Assembly: GCA_030041135.1 (NCBI GenBank)
Contig: JASHOL010000182.1
Location: 1-32,139 of the forward strand
DNA: 32,139 bases
Source: Streptosporangiaceae bacterium
GTDB lineage: Bacteria; Actinomycetota; Actinomycetes; Streptosporangiales; Streptosporangiaceae
Direction of reading: 5' to 3'
Shown: positions 16-21,687 of the stretch, piece after piece
How the letters are laid out: every line of letters starts with the position of its first letter
How positions within the stretch are numbered: the stretch's first letter is position 1
The notes under the pieces: model-generated
Told to the model about the DNA's origin: nothing
The model's database searches: none
Seen by the model: the letters and a program-made list of their open reading frames with translations, nothing else
Position numbers and translations under genes: made by a program

Positions 16-140
16 CGCCGCGAACGACGTGGTGCACTTGCTGGCGGAGTTGGCGGAGAACGCGACATCCTCAGGGTAGGCCAGGAGAACTCCGGCTCGT
101 CATCGTGTCGGCGTCCGTGGCAGTCATGCCAGGGACGGCC
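16..140. repeat. Mosaic of three gene fragments
   Basis: Three abutting pieces match genes elsewhere in this window. Bases 16-71 match the cvnA N-box region (reverse complement of 5106-5161) at about 53 of 56 positions, and translate to NDVVHLLAELAENATS before running into a stop. Bases 69-99 match 13857-13887, the start of the alpha/beta hydrolase gene, at 29 of 31 positions (VGQENSGS). Bases 111-140 match 2784-2813, inside the 5' part of cvnD, at 30 of 30; an 8-base match at 98-105 precedes it. Neighbouring pieces share 2-3 bases at their joints. None is a working gene. They may have been copied from these loci or from paralogues elsewhere in the genome. Confidence 0.75.
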
Positions 141-620
141 TAGCCAGGCATGGAATCAGCACGGGAAAGTGCAGGGAGTCGATGCCGAGCGGGCGGCGGT
201 CGCCGCGGTCGTGTCCGTGGCGACGCGCTCTATGCGCCGTCCGGCGAGAATGGATCAGTCGCGTGGCCGTTCAGGATCTCCGGCTTCTTTCGCAGACGGA
301 GGTGTTTCGCGGCCGGCCGCGCCAGGCGGAGAATCCGAGCGCAGCAACCCATCGGGTGACTCGTAGCGGGAAACGCCTTCCCCCCAGGACGGGGGGTAGC
401 CGATCTCCTTGTTGAAGGAGCGGAAACCGTCAAGTATCCGTCGCAGCCATGCCATCAGACATCTCTTGAGCCAGGGCGCGATTTCCCGGCACATCACGCA
501 TCGTAGCAGCGACCCTGCAGAACTGCCTGTGTAGCTTAGATTCGGCGCGCTCGGAAGGAGTTGAAACCCGGTGGAACCGCGGAACCTTGCCCGGTCCTTT
601 GAGAGAATCACAACGGTAGG
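141..620. other. Gene-poor stretch, no convincing gene
   Basis: No reading frame here has the codon bias of the neighbouring genes, a ribosome binding site and a recognisable product together. One open frame on the minus strand (255-641) is long enough to be noticed but resembles nothing known to me. A small GC hairpin lies at 380-396 (six C, five-base loop, six G) without a following T run. The stretch probably consists of remnants, like the mosaic to its left. Confidence 0.5.
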
Positions 621-2230: not shown

Positions 2231-2833
2231 CTAGCGGCTGCTCAGCTGCATCTCCATCGCGTGCTCCACCAGCGCGATCAACGTGGCCTTGGTGGAACTG
2301 CGGCCGCGGGCGTCGCATTGCATGATCGGCACGCGCGGACTGATCGACAGCGCCTCCTGGACGTCTGAGATCGCATGCGGGAAGTCGCCATGGAAGCCGT
2401 TTATCGCCACGATGAACGGCAGGCCCGCCGACTCGAAATAGTCGACGGCAGGGAAGGAGTCGGCCAGCCTGCGGGTGTCCACGAGCACGACGGCACCGAT
2501 CGCTCCCTGGATCAGGTCGTCCCACATGAACCAGAACCGGTTCTGCCCTGGCGTGCCGAACAGATAGAGGATCAGTCCAGCGTCAAGGGTCACTCGGCCG
2601 AAGTCCATGGCGACGGTCGTCGTGGTCTTGTCAGGGGTGTGGCTCAGGTCGTCCAGCCCGTCGCTGGCCGTGGTCATGACTGCCTCGGTGGTGAGCGGAG
2701 TGATCTCCGACACCGATCCCACGAAGGTGGTCTTGCCGACGCCGAAGCCACCAGCGACGACGATCTTTACCGACGTCATCGCAGCGTCCGTGGCAGTCAT
2801 GCCAGGGACGGCCCTAGAGCTTGCGTAGTCCAC
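2231..2833 (-). CDS. cvnD: Conservon GTPase CvnD
   Basis: A 200-residue small GTP-binding protein of the actinobacterial conservon family, which works with the kinase-like CvnA at the membrane. The P-loop GGFGVGKT lies at about 28-35, switch II as LFGTPGQNRF, and the G5-like CDAR near the C terminus. The usual NKxD base-specificity motif reads NGFH, so its Asp is absent. The GTG at 2833 (VDYASS) gives the 20-base overlap with cvnC typical of this operon. The frame stays open upstream to 2860, but that would lengthen the overlap. The next feature downstream is the tRNA gene; no P450 follows. Confidence 0.9.
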   Translation of the reverse strand: MDYASSRAVPGMTATDAAMTSVKIVVAGGFGVGKTTFVGSVSEITPLTTEAVMTTASDGLDDLSHTPDKTTTTVAMDFGRVTLDAGLILYLFGTPGQNRFWFMWDDLIQGAIGAVVLVDTRRLADSFPAVDYFESAGLPFIVAINGFHGDFPHAISDVQEALSISPRVPIMQCDARGRSSTKATLIALVEHAMEMQLSSR

Positions 2834-3888: not shown

Positions 3889-6800
3889 TCATCGAGAACT
3901 GTCTTCCTCATCCGGCCAGTTATCCCCGCTGGCGGCAGCCGCCCGGCCTTCCCGGCTCCCCCGCTGGAAGTTGGCGAACCGATCCCGCGTCGCGGCCGCA
4001 GACCTCGTAGGCGCCGGTGGCGGCGCCACGTTGTCTGATGCCCCGGCGGCTCCCGGCACCAGATTCGCCTGCGGGACGCGCTTGGGCAGTCCCGCCCCGG
4101 TCGTACCGCCCGTCGACGGCGAGGCGACAGCCGCGGCGGCCTCCCATCCCTGGTCGGACGGAGTTGCCCAGCTGACCTCTGGAATCGGCGTAGCGCCCGA
4201 CGGCGAGGATCCGCCGTCCTGCGGGCCCGGCCACCCGCCCAGACCGCTGCGGCCGCGGCGGAACCAGTCCGACTCGACCGCCTCGAAGATGGGCAGCCGG
4301 TTCTGCGCGGCCACGTGCTCGGCGGGCGGCACGACGACGTCGCCGTTCGCGCTGCCGTCAATCCCAAAGCTGCCGACGCCCGGCCGCGACAGGCCGCCGC
4401 CAGCAGGGGCACCGGACGTGGCGGCGGGAAGAGCGCCGAACTCGGGCGCCGGCCCATTCGCGTCGATGGCCGGCAGCGGGCTGGTGCCGAAGGCCTGGAC
4501 GCCATCACCGTCGGCCTCAGAGTCCGAGTCCGGCCCAGCCGACTGCGGGCTTGACCGGAACGCCGCCATCGGGCCGGTGCTGGAGGGTGCCCAATCCGGG
4601 CTGCCACCAGGCCGGGGTCCCGCACCAGGCACTCGGCGGGCGCCAAGCTTGCCGTTGCCCTCCTCCGCCTGGAGCGGCGCGAACTTCGGTGCCCGCGCGG
4701 CGTTGATCTCCTGCTCCGTTTCTGACACGACGTCTTCCACGGTCCCGGCAGCGGGCACAGTGGCCATCGCCGCCTCGGGCGCGTCGAACCGGCGCAGGAT
4801 AGGCGAGCTCGGTCCGGCGGTGTGGCTGATGACCTCGTCCGGCAGCCAGACCAGAGCGGTCAGCCCACCGGTCGGAGCCGGGCGGAGCCGCACTCTGATC
4901 CCATGCCGCGCGGCCAGCCGGGCAACCACGAACAGCCCCATACGCCGGGAAACCGCCACGTCTACGACCGGCGGGTTGTCCAGCCGCCAGTTGGCGTGTG
5001 CCATCTCCTCGGCGCCCATTCCGACACCCTGGTCGGTGATATCGAGCAGCACACCCCCGCTGCTCAGCAGGTGCCCGGCGACGACCACGGGCGTCTCGGC
5101 CGATGAGAAGGACGTCGCGTTCTCCGCCAACTCGGCCAGCAAGTGCACCACGTCGTTCACGGCGTGGCCGCGCACCGAGATGCCGGGCTGCACGTTGAGC
5201 GTGACCCGCTCGTACTGCTCGATCTCGGATACGGCGGCGCGCAGCACGTCAACGAGCGCGACCGGCTGGTTCCACCGCCTCGTCGCCTCGTGACCGGCCA
5301 GAACCAGGAGGTTTTCCGAGTTGCGCCGCATACGGGTCGCCAGGTGGTCCATCTGGAACAGGCTCGAGAGCCGGTCGGGCTCTTGCTCGCCCTGCTCGAG
5401 GTCGTCGATGAGCTTGATCTGCCGCTCGACCAGCGACTGGCTGCGGCGCGACAGGTTGACGAACATGGCGTTGACGTTGCCGCGCAGCGCGGCCTCGTTG
5501 GCTGCCAGCCGGATGGCCTCGCGGTGGACCTGGTCAAATGCCCGCGCCACTTCACCGATCTCGTCGGTCGAGTCGACGTCTATGGCCTCCACGTCGAGCG
5601 CCGCGCCCGCCGCCCCGTCGGAGTCGCTCATCTGGCGCACCGTCTCCGGCAGCCGTACGCCCGCGACCTCCAGGGCACCGGACCGCAGTCGCCGCAGCGG
5701 CCGGACCATGGACCGGCCGATCACCGTGGTCAGCAGCAGCGCCAGCAGCAAGACGATGAGCACCGCGCCGCCGACCGCGGCCGCCTTGACGATGGCATCC
5801 TGGCGCAGCGCGGAGGCCCGGTCGATGGTCTGCGTCACGAGACCCTGCTCGAGCGTGGCCAGCAACGCGTCGTCGCCGGAGCTGAAGGCCGAATAGACCT
5901 CGGTGGCGTCGAAGGGGGCCGGGACCAGCAGCTCGTGATCCGTGCCAAGGTCGATGGCCGTCGCCTCGTACTGCTGCGCGAAGTCGACCAGGCTGCCGAC
6001 GACAGTATTGCGGTACTCGGCAAGCTGCTGCGGCGACGCCTCGACGTCAAACTCGCCCTGGTTCGCCGCTTGGTCCGCCTCGGCGGCTTCGATCGCTGGG
6101 AGGACGCCGGGCGTGAATTTCTCGATCTGGTAGGTGTAGGTAAGCAGGGAACTCTGCTCGGCGACCTCGGCCCGGATCCGGGAGATCAGGCCAAGGGCGC
6201 GGACGTCGGTGGTGAGCTGCTGGTCGCCGCTGCTCAACGCGATGTTGTCGTCGATCGCGAGCAGGTCGTCGATATAGGTCGTGTAGCTGTTTACTACCGC
6301 GAGCACCGGCAGCTCGGTGCCCCGTGCCTGCTCGCGCAATGCAGGCAGTGCGTTGAGCACGGCGACGATGTCCTGGGCGTCGGTCTCAACCTGTGTCGGG
6401 TACCCGGAGCCGAGAGCCGCGATCTGCGACCTCAGATCGTTCTCCCACACAACGCTCTCGCTTTGCGGGACCAGAATGTTATGCAGGTTGGGGGACGCGT
6501 CTACCGCGGGCGACCCACGGCCACCGTTACTTGGCGGCCCCTGGCCAAGGGCGATGTAATAGGCCGTGAACAGCTGCTCGCTCTCCAGGTCCCCAGCCAG
6601 CTGAGTGACGGACTGGCTAATGTTCGCCAGCTGCTCGACTTGCTGGTCGGCCAGCGCTGCCTGGACCGATGTGACGATGCTGATGGCACCAAGCACCACG
6701 GCCGCCAGCGTCGGGATGATGGTCAGCACGAGCAGCCGCGACCGGACGCGCCAGTTCTTGAGCCCCCGGCGGGATGCCTGGGCCGCCGGTTTTGCGGCCT

Positions 6801-10900: not shown

Positions 10901-11839
10901 GTGATCAACCTGGACCTGAGCTGGCCGCAGGCGGCGGTGGCCGCGGCCGCGCTTGGCGGCGCTTCCATGGCCCTGCGCCGCTCCGGGCGCCCGCGCCTGG
11001 CTGGTGCCGCCGTGTTCACGCAGGAGGCCGGACTGCTGCTAGGCCTCTTCGCCATGTGGGATCTCGCCGGCTCGTTCACCGTGATGGGGCCAGGCGGCGC
11101 GCTTTCCAGGTCCCGGTGGATCTGGCACTTCGAGCGCGTGATCGGGCTGCCGAGCGAGGCGTCGCTCCAGCGGGTGTTCCTCCCGCATCCGCTGCTCGTC
11201 CAGTTCTTCAACCTCTACTACGACTCGCTGCACTTTCCCGTGCTGCTTTCGTGCCTGGCCTGGTTGTTTGTCTGGCACAGGGACAGTTACCGCCGGTGGC
11301 GCACGACGCTCGTCGCGCTCACCGGGCTCTGCCTGCTGATCCAGCTCGTGCCGGTCGCTCCGCCGCGGATGCTGCCGCAGGCCGGCATGGTCGACACCGC
11401 CGTCCTTTACCACGAGTCGGTGTACACGAACGTGGCCGGGTTCAACGCCGACCAGCTGTCGGCGATGCCGTCCGTCCACGTCGGCTGGGCCATCCTCATC
11501 GCCGCCGCCGTCATCAGCACGGCCCGCACCAAGTGGCGATGGCTGGCTGTGCTCTACCCGATGATGACGACCCTCGCGGTGGTGGTGACCGCGAACCACT
11601 TCTGGCTCGACGGCATCGTGGCCGGGCTGCTGCTGGTCATCGTGCTGGCCGTGCAGGCGGGCGTGCGGCGGCTCGGCCTTCGGGTCAGCAGATTCCGTGA
11701 CCGGACCGTGCCGGGCTCGGCCGAGCCGGAGCTCGACCTGGCCGTCGACCTGGCCGTCGACCTGGCCGCGGCAAGCCGCGGCCAGGTCGAGCTTGAGTGC
11801 CAGCCCAGGGGGACGACCCCCCGTGCCCCCGGCAACTAA
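10901..11839 (+). CDS. PAP2/Aur1-type membrane phosphatase or transferase
   Basis: A 312-residue polytopic membrane protein of the PAP2 superfamily, closest in pattern to the Aur1/Ipt1 inositolphosphotransferase-like branch. Motifs are VAPPRM (about 152-157), SAMPSVHVGW (187-196, first active-site His) and NHFWLDGI (231-238, second active-site His and Asp). Five or six hydrophobic segments surround them. The substrate is probably a lipid phosphate or phospho-inositol lipid. The C-terminal tail is hydrophilic with a tandem DLAVDLAVDLA repeat. The first usual start is GTG at 10901, but it lacks a nearby ribosome site. A near-perfect AAGGAGGAA (10865-10873) sits 30 bases upstream, just before an in-frame ATA. 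Confidence 0.85.
   Translation: MINLDLSWPQAAVAAAALGGASMALRRSGRPRLAGAAVFTQEAGLLLGLFAMWDLAGSFTVMGPGGALSRSRWIWHFERVIGLPSEASLQRVFLPHPLLVQFFNLYYDSLHFPVLLSCLAWLFVWHRDSYRRWRTTLVALTGLCLLIQLVPVAPPRMLPQAGMVDTAVLYHESVYTNVAGFNADQLSAMPSVHVGWAILIAAAVISTARTKWRWLAVLYPMMTTLAVVVTANHFWLDGIVAGLLLVIVLAVQAGVRRLGLRVSRFRDRTVPGSAEPELDLAVDLAVDLAAASRGQVELECQPRGTTPRAPGN
11757..11790. repeat. 34-bp palindrome inside PAP2 gene 3' end
   Basis: TCGACCTGGCCGCGGC and its exact reverse complement are separated only by AA, giving 16-bp arms. Two further copies of the 12-base unit GTCGACCTGGCC precede it in tandem (from about 11733), so the right arm could pair with any of them. It lies 50 bases before the stop codon and close to the convergent pentapeptide gene. 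It could work as a bidirectional terminator, but no T run follows. Confidence 0.8.
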
Positions 11840-13848: not shown

Positions 13849-14679
13849 ATGCCTTACCTCAAGGTAGGCCAGGAGAACTCGGGCTCGATCGACTTGTACT
13901 TCGAGGACCACGGCTCAGGTCAGCCCGTCGTGCTGATCCACGGGTACCCGCTCAGTGGCCGTGCCTGGGACAAGCAGGTCCCGGCACTGCTGGAGGACGG
14001 CCGCCGGGTCATCAACTACGACCGGCGCGGGTTCGGCCGCTCCAGCCAGCCCACCACCGGCTACAACTACGACACGTTCGCCGCCGACCTGCGCGTCCTG
14101 CTGGACACTCTGGACCTGCGCGACGTCACCCTGGTCGGCCACTCGATGGGCACAGGAGAGGTCACCCGATTCCTGGGCTCTTATGGCTCCTCCCGCATCG
14201 ACCGGGGCGTGCTGGTCTCGCCCATCCCGCCGTTCCTGCTGCAGGCGCCTGACAACCCGGAGGGCCTGGCCGGCAGCGTGTTCGACGGCTTCATGCAGTC
14301 CGCCCGCGACGACGGCCCGGCCTGGATGAGGAGCTTCCTCGACACGTTCTTCAACATCGACAAGCTCCGGGGCACCCTGGTCAGTGATGCTTACTACGAG
14401 GCCTGCTGGAACATCGCAGTCTCCGCGTCGGCGACCGCGGCGGTCGCGTGCATCCCGACCTGGGAGACGGACTTCCGCGGCGACGTGGCCAAGATCGACA
14501 TCCCGATGCTGGTCATCCAGGGCGACGAAGACAACGTGCTGCCCTACCCCAAGACCGGCCAGCGACTGCCCGGAATGATCAAGAACCTGCAGATGGACGT
14601 CATCGAAGGCGGGCCGCACGCCATCTGCTGGACCCACGCGGACCAGGTCAACGCGGCCCTGCTCAAGTTCATGGCCTGA
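13849..14679 (+). CDS. Alpha/beta hydrolase, chloroperoxidase/arylesterase-like
   Basis: A 276-residue alpha/beta hydrolase close to the cofactor-free haloperoxidase (perhydrolase/esterase) group. The catalytic triad is visible: S99 in GHSMG, D228 in QGDEDNVLP and H257 in GGPHAI. The oxyanion HG dipeptide is in LIHGYPLSG, and INYDRRGFGRSS is characteristic of this group. The length is normal, with no signal peptide. GGGGGA just before the ATG at 13849 is the ribosome site. The first 31 bases after codon 2 recur at 69-99. The gene stands alone and ends in a strong hairpin. Confidence 0.9.
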   Translation: MPYLKVGQENSGSIDLYFEDHGSGQPVVLIHGYPLSGRAWDKQVPALLEDGRRVINYDRRGFGRSSQPTTGYNYDTFAADLRVLLDTLDLRDVTLVGHSMGTGEVTRFLGSYGSSRIDRGVLVSPIPPFLLQAPDNPEGLAGSVFDGFMQSARDDGPAWMRSFLDTFFNIDKLRGTLVSDAYYEACWNIAVSASATAAVACIPTWETDFRGDVAKIDIPMLVIQGDEDNVLPYPKTGQRLPGMIKNLQMDVIEGGPHAICWTHADQVNAALLKFMA

Positions 14680-14804: not shown

Positions 14805-16007
14805 TCACGCACCAGTCGCGACGTTGATCGCCTTGCCGGCCTTGTTTGTGGCCGTGTTGATCGGCACGACCGTGGTCGAGAAGTCGTCGTAGACGTACGC
14901 GGTCTTGCCGTTCGGCGTGATCGCGATGTAGATCGGATTGTCACCGGCCTTGATCGGCTTGCCGACCGTGCCGGTGGCGAGGCGGATGGGCACGACGGTG
15001 TCACCGCTCTCGTCATCGGCTCCGCCGATCGTGACGTAGGCCGTCTTGCCGTTCGGTGTGATCACGATGCAGTCCGGGTTGGTTCCCACCCTGATCGGCT
15101 TGCCCGCCTTGTCGGTAGCCAGGCTGATCGGCGTCACCACGTGGCTGTTGTCCTGGTAGAGACCCTCGCTCGCGACGTAGGCGGTCTTCCCGTTCGGCGT
15201 GATCGCGATCCAGTTAGGACCTGGGCCTACCTTGATCGGCTTCCCGGCCTTGTTCGTCGCCAGGTTGATCGGGGTCACGGTGTCTCCGCCAGTGTTGGCG
15301 ACGAGAGCGGTCTTCCCGTTCGGGGTGATGGCGATATAGAACGGCGTCGCACCGGTCTTGATCGGCTTCCCAGCCTTGTTGGTGGCCGTGTTGATCGGGG
15401 TGACCGTGCCGTTGAAATCGGTGACGTAGGCGGTCTTGCCGTTCGGGGTGATCGCGATGGCCAACGGGTTGAAGAACTCGGCCCTGATCGCGCGGCCCGT
15501 CGCGTTGGTGGCCAAATTGATCGGCACGACCTGCGAGTTCCTGGTCGCCGAGACGTAGGCCTTCTTCCCGTTCGGAGTGATCGCGATCTCGGTGAGGTAG
15601 CTGCCGTAGCCGCCGAGCGAGATCTCCTTTTCCGCATGGTTGGTCGCGATGTTGATCGGATCCACGACCCCGAGGTAGTCATCGACGACGTAGGCCGTCT
15701 TGCCGTTCGGCGCGATCTCCATGGCCCAGGGCACGCCGCCCGAGATGGGGATCGCCTTACCGGTGGCGTTGGTCGTGGTGTTCACCGGCCGTACATAGCC
15801 GCTCTCGACCACGTAGGCCGTCTTGCCGTTGGCCGTTATCGCGATCGGGCCCGGCTCGGGCACGACGCCGATGGGCGGTGCGCCGGCGTGCGCCGCGGTC
15901 GCGGTGGCCGAGTCGGCGGGCGCGGACGGCCCGAGCACCATCATGCCGCACGCGATACCGATCGCGGCCGGGCCAGCCAGCCGCCGGAACAGGATCAGAG
16001 TGTCCAC
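14805..16007 (-). CDS. Secreted YVTN-type beta-propeller protein
   Basis: A 400-residue exported protein. The N-terminal 35 residues have a hydrophobic core (IGIACGMMVLG) and an ADSATA cleavage-like end without a lipobox Cys. The rest is eight repeats of 41-47 residues, each with a strand reading IAITPNGKTAYV and a second reading VTPINTATNKAGKPI; the NGK motifs fall near 60, 101, 146, 189, 230, 272, 319 and 366. This is the YVTN/YncE propeller pattern of surface or secreted proteins, which mediate binding rather than catalysis. The start is GTG at 16007 with GAGGGGG seven bases upstream. No enzyme domain is attached, and it is transcribed alone. Confidence 0.9.
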   Translation of the reverse strand: MDTLILFRRLAGPAAIGIACGMMVLGPSAPADSATATAAHAGAPPIGVVPEPGPIAITANGKTAYVVESGYVRPVNTTTNATGKAIPISGGVPWAMEIAPNGKTAYVVDDYLGVVDPINIATNHAEKEISLGGYGSYLTEIAITPNGKKAYVSATRNSQVVPINLATNATGRAIRAEFFNPLAIAITPNGKTAYVTDFNGTVTPINTATNKAGKPIKTGATPFYIAITPNGKTALVANTGGDTVTPINLATNKAGKPIKVGPGPNWIAITPNGKTAYVASEGLYQDNSHVVTPISLATDKAGKPIRVGTNPDCIVITPNGKTAYVTIGGADDESGDTVVPIRLATGTVGKPIKAGDNPIYIAITPNGKTAYVYDDFSTTVVPINTATNKAGKAINVATGA

Positions 16008-20310: not shown

Positions 20311-21687
20311 TTAATGTACCGAGTCCACCCATCGGACCGCTCGGACGGCTGGGATGGCGAGGACGACGGCGGCGCTCAGGGTGGCATAGGCAGCGGCGAA
20401 GCCGAGCATCCTGGCGGGCCCGACGGTGTCAGCGATTGAGCCGATGACCACCCACGACATCGAGCCAAGCGCATACGAGCCGGTCAGCGTGAACGAAGTG
20501 ACGCGCCCCAGCATCTGAGCCGGGACCTGCTGCTGGGTGGCGGTACTGATGTAGGTGCTCGCCACAGCGCTTCCGGTTCCGCCCGCGAAGGCCCCGGCAG
20601 CCACGAGATAGAGCGCGGCGTGAGTGGCAAGCATGAGGCACGGAATCGGGTACCCGAACGTGCCGAGCGTCGCGACCAGCATCAGCCGGCGCGGCCGGCG
20701 GCCGACGAGGGCCAGGCCGGCCAGCACCGAGCCCGCCGCGTACGAGGCTGCGATGATCCCCCAGGCGCTCGCGCCGCCGAGGTACTGACGGGCCAGGATC
20801 GGCCCGAGCAGCAGGTAGGGGGCCCAGGTGAAGAGGTTAAACAGCGCGAACTGCAGTGTCGTGATCCAGAGCCAGGTCTGCGACCTGAAGACGGCCCAGC
20901 CGTCGGCGAGATCGCGAAACGCTGACTGACGCGCCGGGCTTGCCGCCGGGACTGCGAGCCGGGCCAGGCACGCTACGCTGACGCCGAAGCTGACCGCGTC
21001 GCAGGCGATGACCACGGCCGGACTCGACAGCGCGATCAGGCTTCCGGCCAGGGCCGGTCCGATGATGCCCGAGCCTGTCTGAACGACGCCGAGCAGCGCG
21101 TTGGCGTCGGGCAGCTTGTCGCGCGGAGCGATCTCGGCCCTCAGCCCGCCGAGGGCCGGGTTGAAGAAGCCCTCGCCGGTCCCGAGCAACCCGGCGAGCA
21201 GCGCGAACGACCAGATTGCCGGCCTGCCGGTGAACAGCAGCGCCGCCAGCGTGCCTTGCACCGCGAGCCGGATCGTGTCCGTGGTCAGCATGACGGGCCG
21301 CCGGCCGACACGGTCCGCCAGCACTCCGCCGCCAAGCATGACCGCCACCTGCGGCACGACGTCGGCCGCGAGGACGTAGCCGAGATCAGCCGGGCCGCCA
21401 CCGCTGTCCAGGACGGCGAACGTCAGCGCAACGGAGGCCATGGCCGAGCCGAGCATGGACGTCGAGTAACCGACAAGGAAGGCGCGGAAGTTGCGCTCGT
21501 CCAGTGGCCCGAGCCGCCGGCGCAGCCAGCCGCTTCGGCCCTGCGGTGGCCGCCGCGGCGGTGCCTGACCAGTGTCGATGACGGATAGGCGTCCGCCGCT
21601 GCCGCCCCGTGAATGCAAAATTGATTTACTGCGATTACCAGTCAGCGACTCGCGTGAATCTGGCACGAAATTAAGAATGTCACGCAT
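20311..21687 (-). CDS. MFS transporter
   Basis: About 458 residues with about 10-12 hydrophobic segments from residue 75 on. The MFS loop motif LADRVGRRPVML lies between segments 2 and 3, and FFNPALGGLRAEIAP marks it as the Enterobactin exporter/MFS_3-like group, often drug or siderophore exporters. It is first in the putative catabolic operon, so it may export or import the substrate. The start is uncertain. ATG at 21687 has no good ribosome site, and the first 35 codons are AT-rich and unlike the rest, so this part could be leader DNA with a true start further in. No later ATG precedes the first membrane segment. Confidence 0.87.
   Translation of the reverse strand: MRDILNFVPDSRESLTGNRSKSILHSRGGSGGRLSVIDTGQAPPRRPPQGRSGWLRRRLGPLDERNFRAFLVGYSTSMLGSAMASVALTFAVLDSGGGPADLGYVLAADVVPQVAVMLGGGVLADRVGRRPVMLTTDTIRLAVQGTLAALLFTGRPAIWSFALLAGLLGTGEGFFNPALGGLRAEIAPRDKLPDANALLGVVQTGSGIIGPALAGSLIALSSPAVVIACDAVSFGVSVACLARLAVPAASPARQSAFRDLADGWAVFRSQTWLWITTLQFALFNLFTWAPYLLLGPILARQYLGGASAWGIIAASYAAGSVLAGLALVGRRPRRLMLVATLGTFGYPIPCLMLATHAALYLVAAGAFAGGTGSAVASTYISTATQQQVPAQMLGRVTSFTLTGSYALGSMSWVVIGSIADTVGPARMLGFAAAYATLSAAVVLAIPAVRAVRWVDSVH

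Follow-up and report, generated by a model that had tools for sequence, protein, structure and literature searches.

We have identified, at the start of a contig of a Streptosporangiaceae bacterium, a patchwork of five abutting gene fragments that were copied from the bacterium's own genes and mostly from within 14 kb. The patchwork occupies positions 16-223 of the window, by which we mean the whole stretch of DNA that was analysed (32,139 nucleotides; G000:C149:1-32139). Its pieces are 30-56 bp long and of mixed orientation, as found by sequence comparison with the window and the whole genome. The patchwork is hypothesized, at a probability of roughly one half, to be a fossil left by a single mutagenic repair, during which chromosomal fragments were captured by Ku/LigD end joining.

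Structure and sources of the patchwork

The window belongs to a fragmented assembly in 528 contigs that totals 6.58 Mb, with completeness at 91.9 and contamination at 7.9%; its lineage is one of the Streptosporangiaceae known from metagenomes, probably of soil. Because window position 1 is the true start of the contig, the patchwork may extend further left. No overlap was found between the contig start and contig C502, the match in this genome (G000) to the upstream flank of the nearest relative, G008. An intergenic region of contig C502 holds tandem repeats of about 84 bp (L227:10172-10355). The features at the left end of the window are listed below, with source positions in the window unless a contig is named.

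1-15: contig-edge stretch; no match longer than 10 bp within the window; possibly the end of one further piece
16-71, minus strand: piece 1, from the interior of cvnA; source 5109-5164, minus strand; 53/56 identical; E 9e-18 against the whole genome
69-99, plus strand: piece 2, 5' end of an alpha/beta hydrolase gene; source 13857-13887; 29/31; E 1.4e-5
98-140, plus strand: piece 3, 5' part of cvnD, antisense strand; source 2774-2813; E 8e-9
141-142: two bases, TA, between pieces 3 and 4, seen on sequence comparison
143-181, minus strand: piece 4, interior of a PAP2-superfamily gene, antisense strand; source 11221-11259; 35/39; E 3.4e-7
180-223, minus strand: piece 5, interior of a fabG-like SDR gene, antisense; source contig C468, 21348-21392; E 2.8e-8
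224-233: 10-base filler between piece 5 and the 333-bp block; the same 10-mer stands at 20608-20617 (minus strand), where it may be a chance occurrence
231-563: 333-bp non-coding block, right boundary of the patchwork; 91% identical and ungapped against the nearest relative (G008:C428:7818-7486)

Together the five pieces cover 16-223, leaving over bases 141-142 and a small internal change at 106-110. The sequence-only reading had described segments of resident genes stitched together, which holds, and had counted three of them, which falls short of the at least five that are present; 143-181 and 180-223 had been missed. The three matches that it gave stand: 16-71 against 5164-5109 (minus), 69-99 against 13857-13887 (plus) and 111-140 against 2784-2813 (plus), the last being exact (30/30). 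The 8-base lead-in that it saw at 98-105 is also present (8/8 against 2774-2781) and belongs to the cvnD piece, within which TGTCG at 106-110 stands in place of CA, i.e. five bases for two. Piece 5 is about 89% identical to its source (about 40/45) and has one base deleted relative to it. With respect to their source genes, two pieces lie in sense and three in antisense orientation. The window comparison reported no repeats between the pieces, which adjoin directly.

Joint overlaps were set by exact extension of each match. The cvnA and hydrolase pieces have 3 bp in common (CCT, 69-71) and the hydrolase and cvnD pieces 2 bp (CG, 98-99), bearing out the overlaps of 2-3 bp proposed earlier for these joints. 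At the joint of the cvnD and PAP2 pieces, TA is either filler or, as the alignment would also allow, the end of piece 3 minus one base (source GGCCCTAG, here GGCCTAG), so that 0-1 bp is shared: either TA is unmatched or 1 bp is common if one C was lost. The PAP2 and fabG pieces again have 2 bp in common (CG, 180-181). Microhomology at the four joints (3, 2, 0-1 and 2 bp) is weakly above chance (P about 0.04-0.07).

Every piece traces to a single clear source across the 6.58-Mb genome (E 9e-18 to 1.4e-5). Four of the five sources lie within 14 kb, at 2.8, 5.1, 11.2 and 13.9 kb, and the fifth, the fabG-like gene, sits on the separate contig C468. In three relatives assembled in few contigs, the fabG-like orthologue lies about 517 kb (G029), 315 kb (G031) and 327 kb (G026) from the tRNA-Met match. 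The sequence-only reading had suggested a paralogous conservon as the origin of piece 1; against this, the resident cvnA is the sole strong match in the genome (next cvnA-like match, E 0.025), and the piece carries two bases that, among the compared orthologues, only the resident cvnA has. The pieces were likewise rejected as ordinary ends of longer, full-length paralogues, the source match stopping on both sides of each piece.

Chance origin of the matches is excluded. The patchwork has four matches of at least 44 bits in the rest of the window (48.8-91 bits), whereas any such match to the rest of the window was found in 0 of 2000 Markov shuffles of positions 1-240, and two such matches in 0 of 1079 real 240-mers drawn from this genome. 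The structure is also solitary where it was searched for. The 1.2 Mb of this genome that were scanned (about 18% of its sequence, with 658 non-coding stretches) held no second stretch with at least three strong gene fragments, and no other chain of at least three local pieces was found in 244 loci totalling 3.36 Mb, some of them duplicated. The search for other such mosaics that had been proposed thus gave none in the 1.2 Mb, and a recurrent repeat family or genome-wide habit was rejected since neither set held a further chain. In eight congeneric genomes the source genes were matched separately, and no strong match spanned the joints. No known plasmid record carries the patchwork, and an exact match to the joints is absent from viral contigs.

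Age and decay of the insert

Four bases are common to the pieces and the resident genes only: two in cvnA, one in cvnD and one in the hydrolase gene. The orthologues compared were those of G008, G006, G004 and G007 for cvnA, G008 and G006 for cvnD, and G008 and JOPF032 for the hydrolase. At the level of base comparison, the resident-only bases show that the pieces were copied from this lineage's own genes after its split from G008. At two further sites, in the PAP2 and fabG pieces, the mosaic has the base of G008 and not that of the resident gene.

Changes private to the mosaic comprise about 11 substitutions and three small indels, placing the pieces about 6% off their sources. Six of the substitutions fall at third codon positions and five at first or second positions, against 86:30 among the orthologues, a difference that is not significant (Fisher p = 0.17). 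Reading frames would be broken by the one-base losses and the five-for-two change, so that a coding copy derived from a co-existing strain is disfavored. The insert has decayed since its formation, drifting as non-coding DNA, and is likely without function.

The scarred tRNA-Met site and its surroundings

The patchwork adjoins a scarred integration site. A tRNA-Met gene lies at 2080-2154 on the minus strand, and its 3' part (2076-2125) is repeated with 88% identity at 612-661, 1.46 kb away; such a duplication typically marks the integration of an element at a tRNA, and a similar tRNA-Met duplicate is present in the nearest relative. Positions 1848-1912 match the C-terminal end of a longer tyrosine-recombinase-like ORF in this relative (L054:6705-7427, minus strand) and, by our reading of the translation, would be the end of a decayed integrase. 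Between the tRNA-Met copies, an ORF for a PIN-domain toxin is preceded by a small overlapping ORF at 859-1059 (overlap ATGA); the pair spans 859-1466 and looks like a VapBC-type toxin-antitoxin inside the tRNA scar. The sequence GGCACGTATTTGGCA occurs in three copies, at 735-757, 1710-1732 and 1947-1961, one of them just past the integrase remnant, and is possibly an integrase-associated site. An integrating element might conceivably have supplied the break.

On the right, the 333-bp block at 231-563 was found only here and in G008 and is absent from 119 other family genomes. Its context in G008 is different, being variable and near tRNA-like remnants, and the flank that it has in that relative is mostly absent from the present genome. 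No recognisable empty site was found in any relative, which leaves the break site beyond reconstruction, with the left edge lost at the contig end.

Further into the window, eight or nine degenerate repeats, about 123-141 bp apart, lie at 14824-15876 within a minus-strand ORF (14805-16007) whose product looks like a beta-propeller protein.

Origin of the patchwork and its meaning

In the repair event that we favor, the chromosome would have broken near the scarred tRNA-Met integration site and its ends would have been rejoined by Ku/LigD non-homologous end joining (NHEJ). Several chromosomal fragments of 30-56 bp would have been captured in tandem and in mixed orientation, with 0-3 bp common at the joints; four would have come from the DNA beside the break and one from elsewhere. 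Thereafter the insert would have drifted as non-coding DNA. We infer three points: that the chromosome broke, that there was one event and not several, and that the pieces were joined by ligation and not by copying. The genome encodes two Ku genes and four genes with LigD primase-polymerase domains, and the stretch combines with them short inserts from the same genome, mostly nearby sources, and joints with 0-3 bp of microhomology or small fillers, as in known NHEJ scars. Since the sources are intact in the genome, the fragments would have come from a sister copy or would have been copied.

The closest experimental precedent comes from another actinobacterium equipped with Ku and LigD, Streptomyces ambofaciens (Hoff et al. 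2018, PMC5869714). Where I-SceI breaks were joined in that species in a Ku/LigD-dependent manner, two inserts (42 and 83 bp) derived from DNA close to the cut and a third (30 bp) from a transposase gene far away in the terminal repeats; microhomology of 1-6 nt was seen in 50% of the scars and added nucleotides in 40% (PMC5869714). Our preference for NHEJ capture is based on this agreement in size (30-83 bp there), in locality, with sources mostly near and sometimes far, and in the microhomology or added bases at the joints. The S. ambofaciens scars carry one insert each (PMC5869714), whereas the present patchwork, which arose in nature and is old enough to have decayed, holds five or more in a row. 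We provisionally file the patchwork as a multi-piece variant of known NHEJ fragment capture. Points against this reading are the number of inserts, the intact sources, the lost left edge and the break site that no relative allows us to reconstruct, and the weak excess of microhomology at the joints, which would also suit template switching.

Serial replicative template switching (FoSTeS/MMBIR-like) is the main rival, and we regard it as possible but doubtful. Under it, the 3' end of a stalled or broken fork would prime on microhomologies of 2-3 bp at successive nearby templates, copying each for 30-56 bp before rejoining. Local templates used in series on both strands agree with this process, as do the joint overlaps (3, 2, 0-1 and 2 bp), weakly above chance as they are, and intact sources would require no debris. 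However, stronger microhomology is predicted than the unclear excess observed, the distant fabG source fits less well, and the literature that was searched gave no bacterial precedent for serial short switches. The polymerases of eukaryotic microhomology-mediated break-induced replication differ from bacterial ones. Insertions attributed to that process, for example in PMC8421209, resemble the patchwork in their short templated pieces and microhomology joints; they are eukaryotic, whereas the microhomology here is only weakly above chance. Template switching, to which the sequence-only reading had likened the joints, thus keeps a place behind end-joining capture, which is preferred for its direct Streptomyces precedent with equal piece sizes and locality. 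Tentatively, and with less confidence than we place in a repair fossil as such, bacteria might be suggested to make compound, chromoanasynthesis-like insertions, in which one repair event copies or captures at least five short, mostly local segments in series. The serial process would consist of repeated microhomology switching, perhaps with LigD-type polymerases, a serial form that would be new for bacteria.

A chimera of the assembly or library at the contig edge had been named as the main alternative, a standing that is weakened by the private mutations, the three small indels and the local sources. The patchwork does lie at a contig start in a fragmented and partly contaminated assembly (528 contigs, 7.9%), it is the single mosaic found, and its joints are absent from relatives. 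Nonetheless, no joint shares more than 3 bp, too little for k-mer overlap, and if fragments in a soil library were ligated at random, four of the five would not stem from one 14-kb region of a single genome. The divergence of about 6% from the sources and the frame-breaking indels are far beyond sequencing error, the adjoining 333 bp align ungapped at 91% to a relative, and the other scanned contig ends of this genome show no mosaics. Because of the private substitutions and indels, together with local sources in a soil metagenome, we consider an artefact unlikely.

Less likely still is the uptake of fragmented sibling DNA with stepwise short-patch illegitimate recombination at one site. Short-patch double illegitimate recombination reportedly involves, as a rule, a single short segment replacing recipient sequence, in contrast to the at least five tandem pieces here. 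Its product, as named in the title of Harms et al. 2016 (PNAS 113:15066, cited in PMC6321871), is similar in that short intragenomic segments are inserted elsewhere in bacteria. Uptake would nevertheless require five adjacent events and would leave the locality of the sources unexplained. Least probable is a selected element, either a multi-target antisense RNA gene or a spacer-like memory of resident genes: pieces 2 and 3 do lie near gene starts, yet two pieces are sense and three antisense, inter-piece repeats are lacking, the indels are private, the structure is absent from the eight congeneric genomes and positions 1-2079 have no Rfam match. An antisense gene and a CRISPR-like array were accordingly rejected on the mixed orientation, the missing repeats and the directly abutting pieces.

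If the reading of NHEJ fragment capture is true, the patchwork would be a natural, roughly datable case of multi-fragment capture in bacterial break repair. It would connect laboratory-made single-insert scars with the way in which genomes of NHEJ-bearing actinobacteria evolve, and it would provide a signature that can be searched for in complete genomes, namely abutting pieces of 30-60 bp from nearby genes in intergenic DNA.
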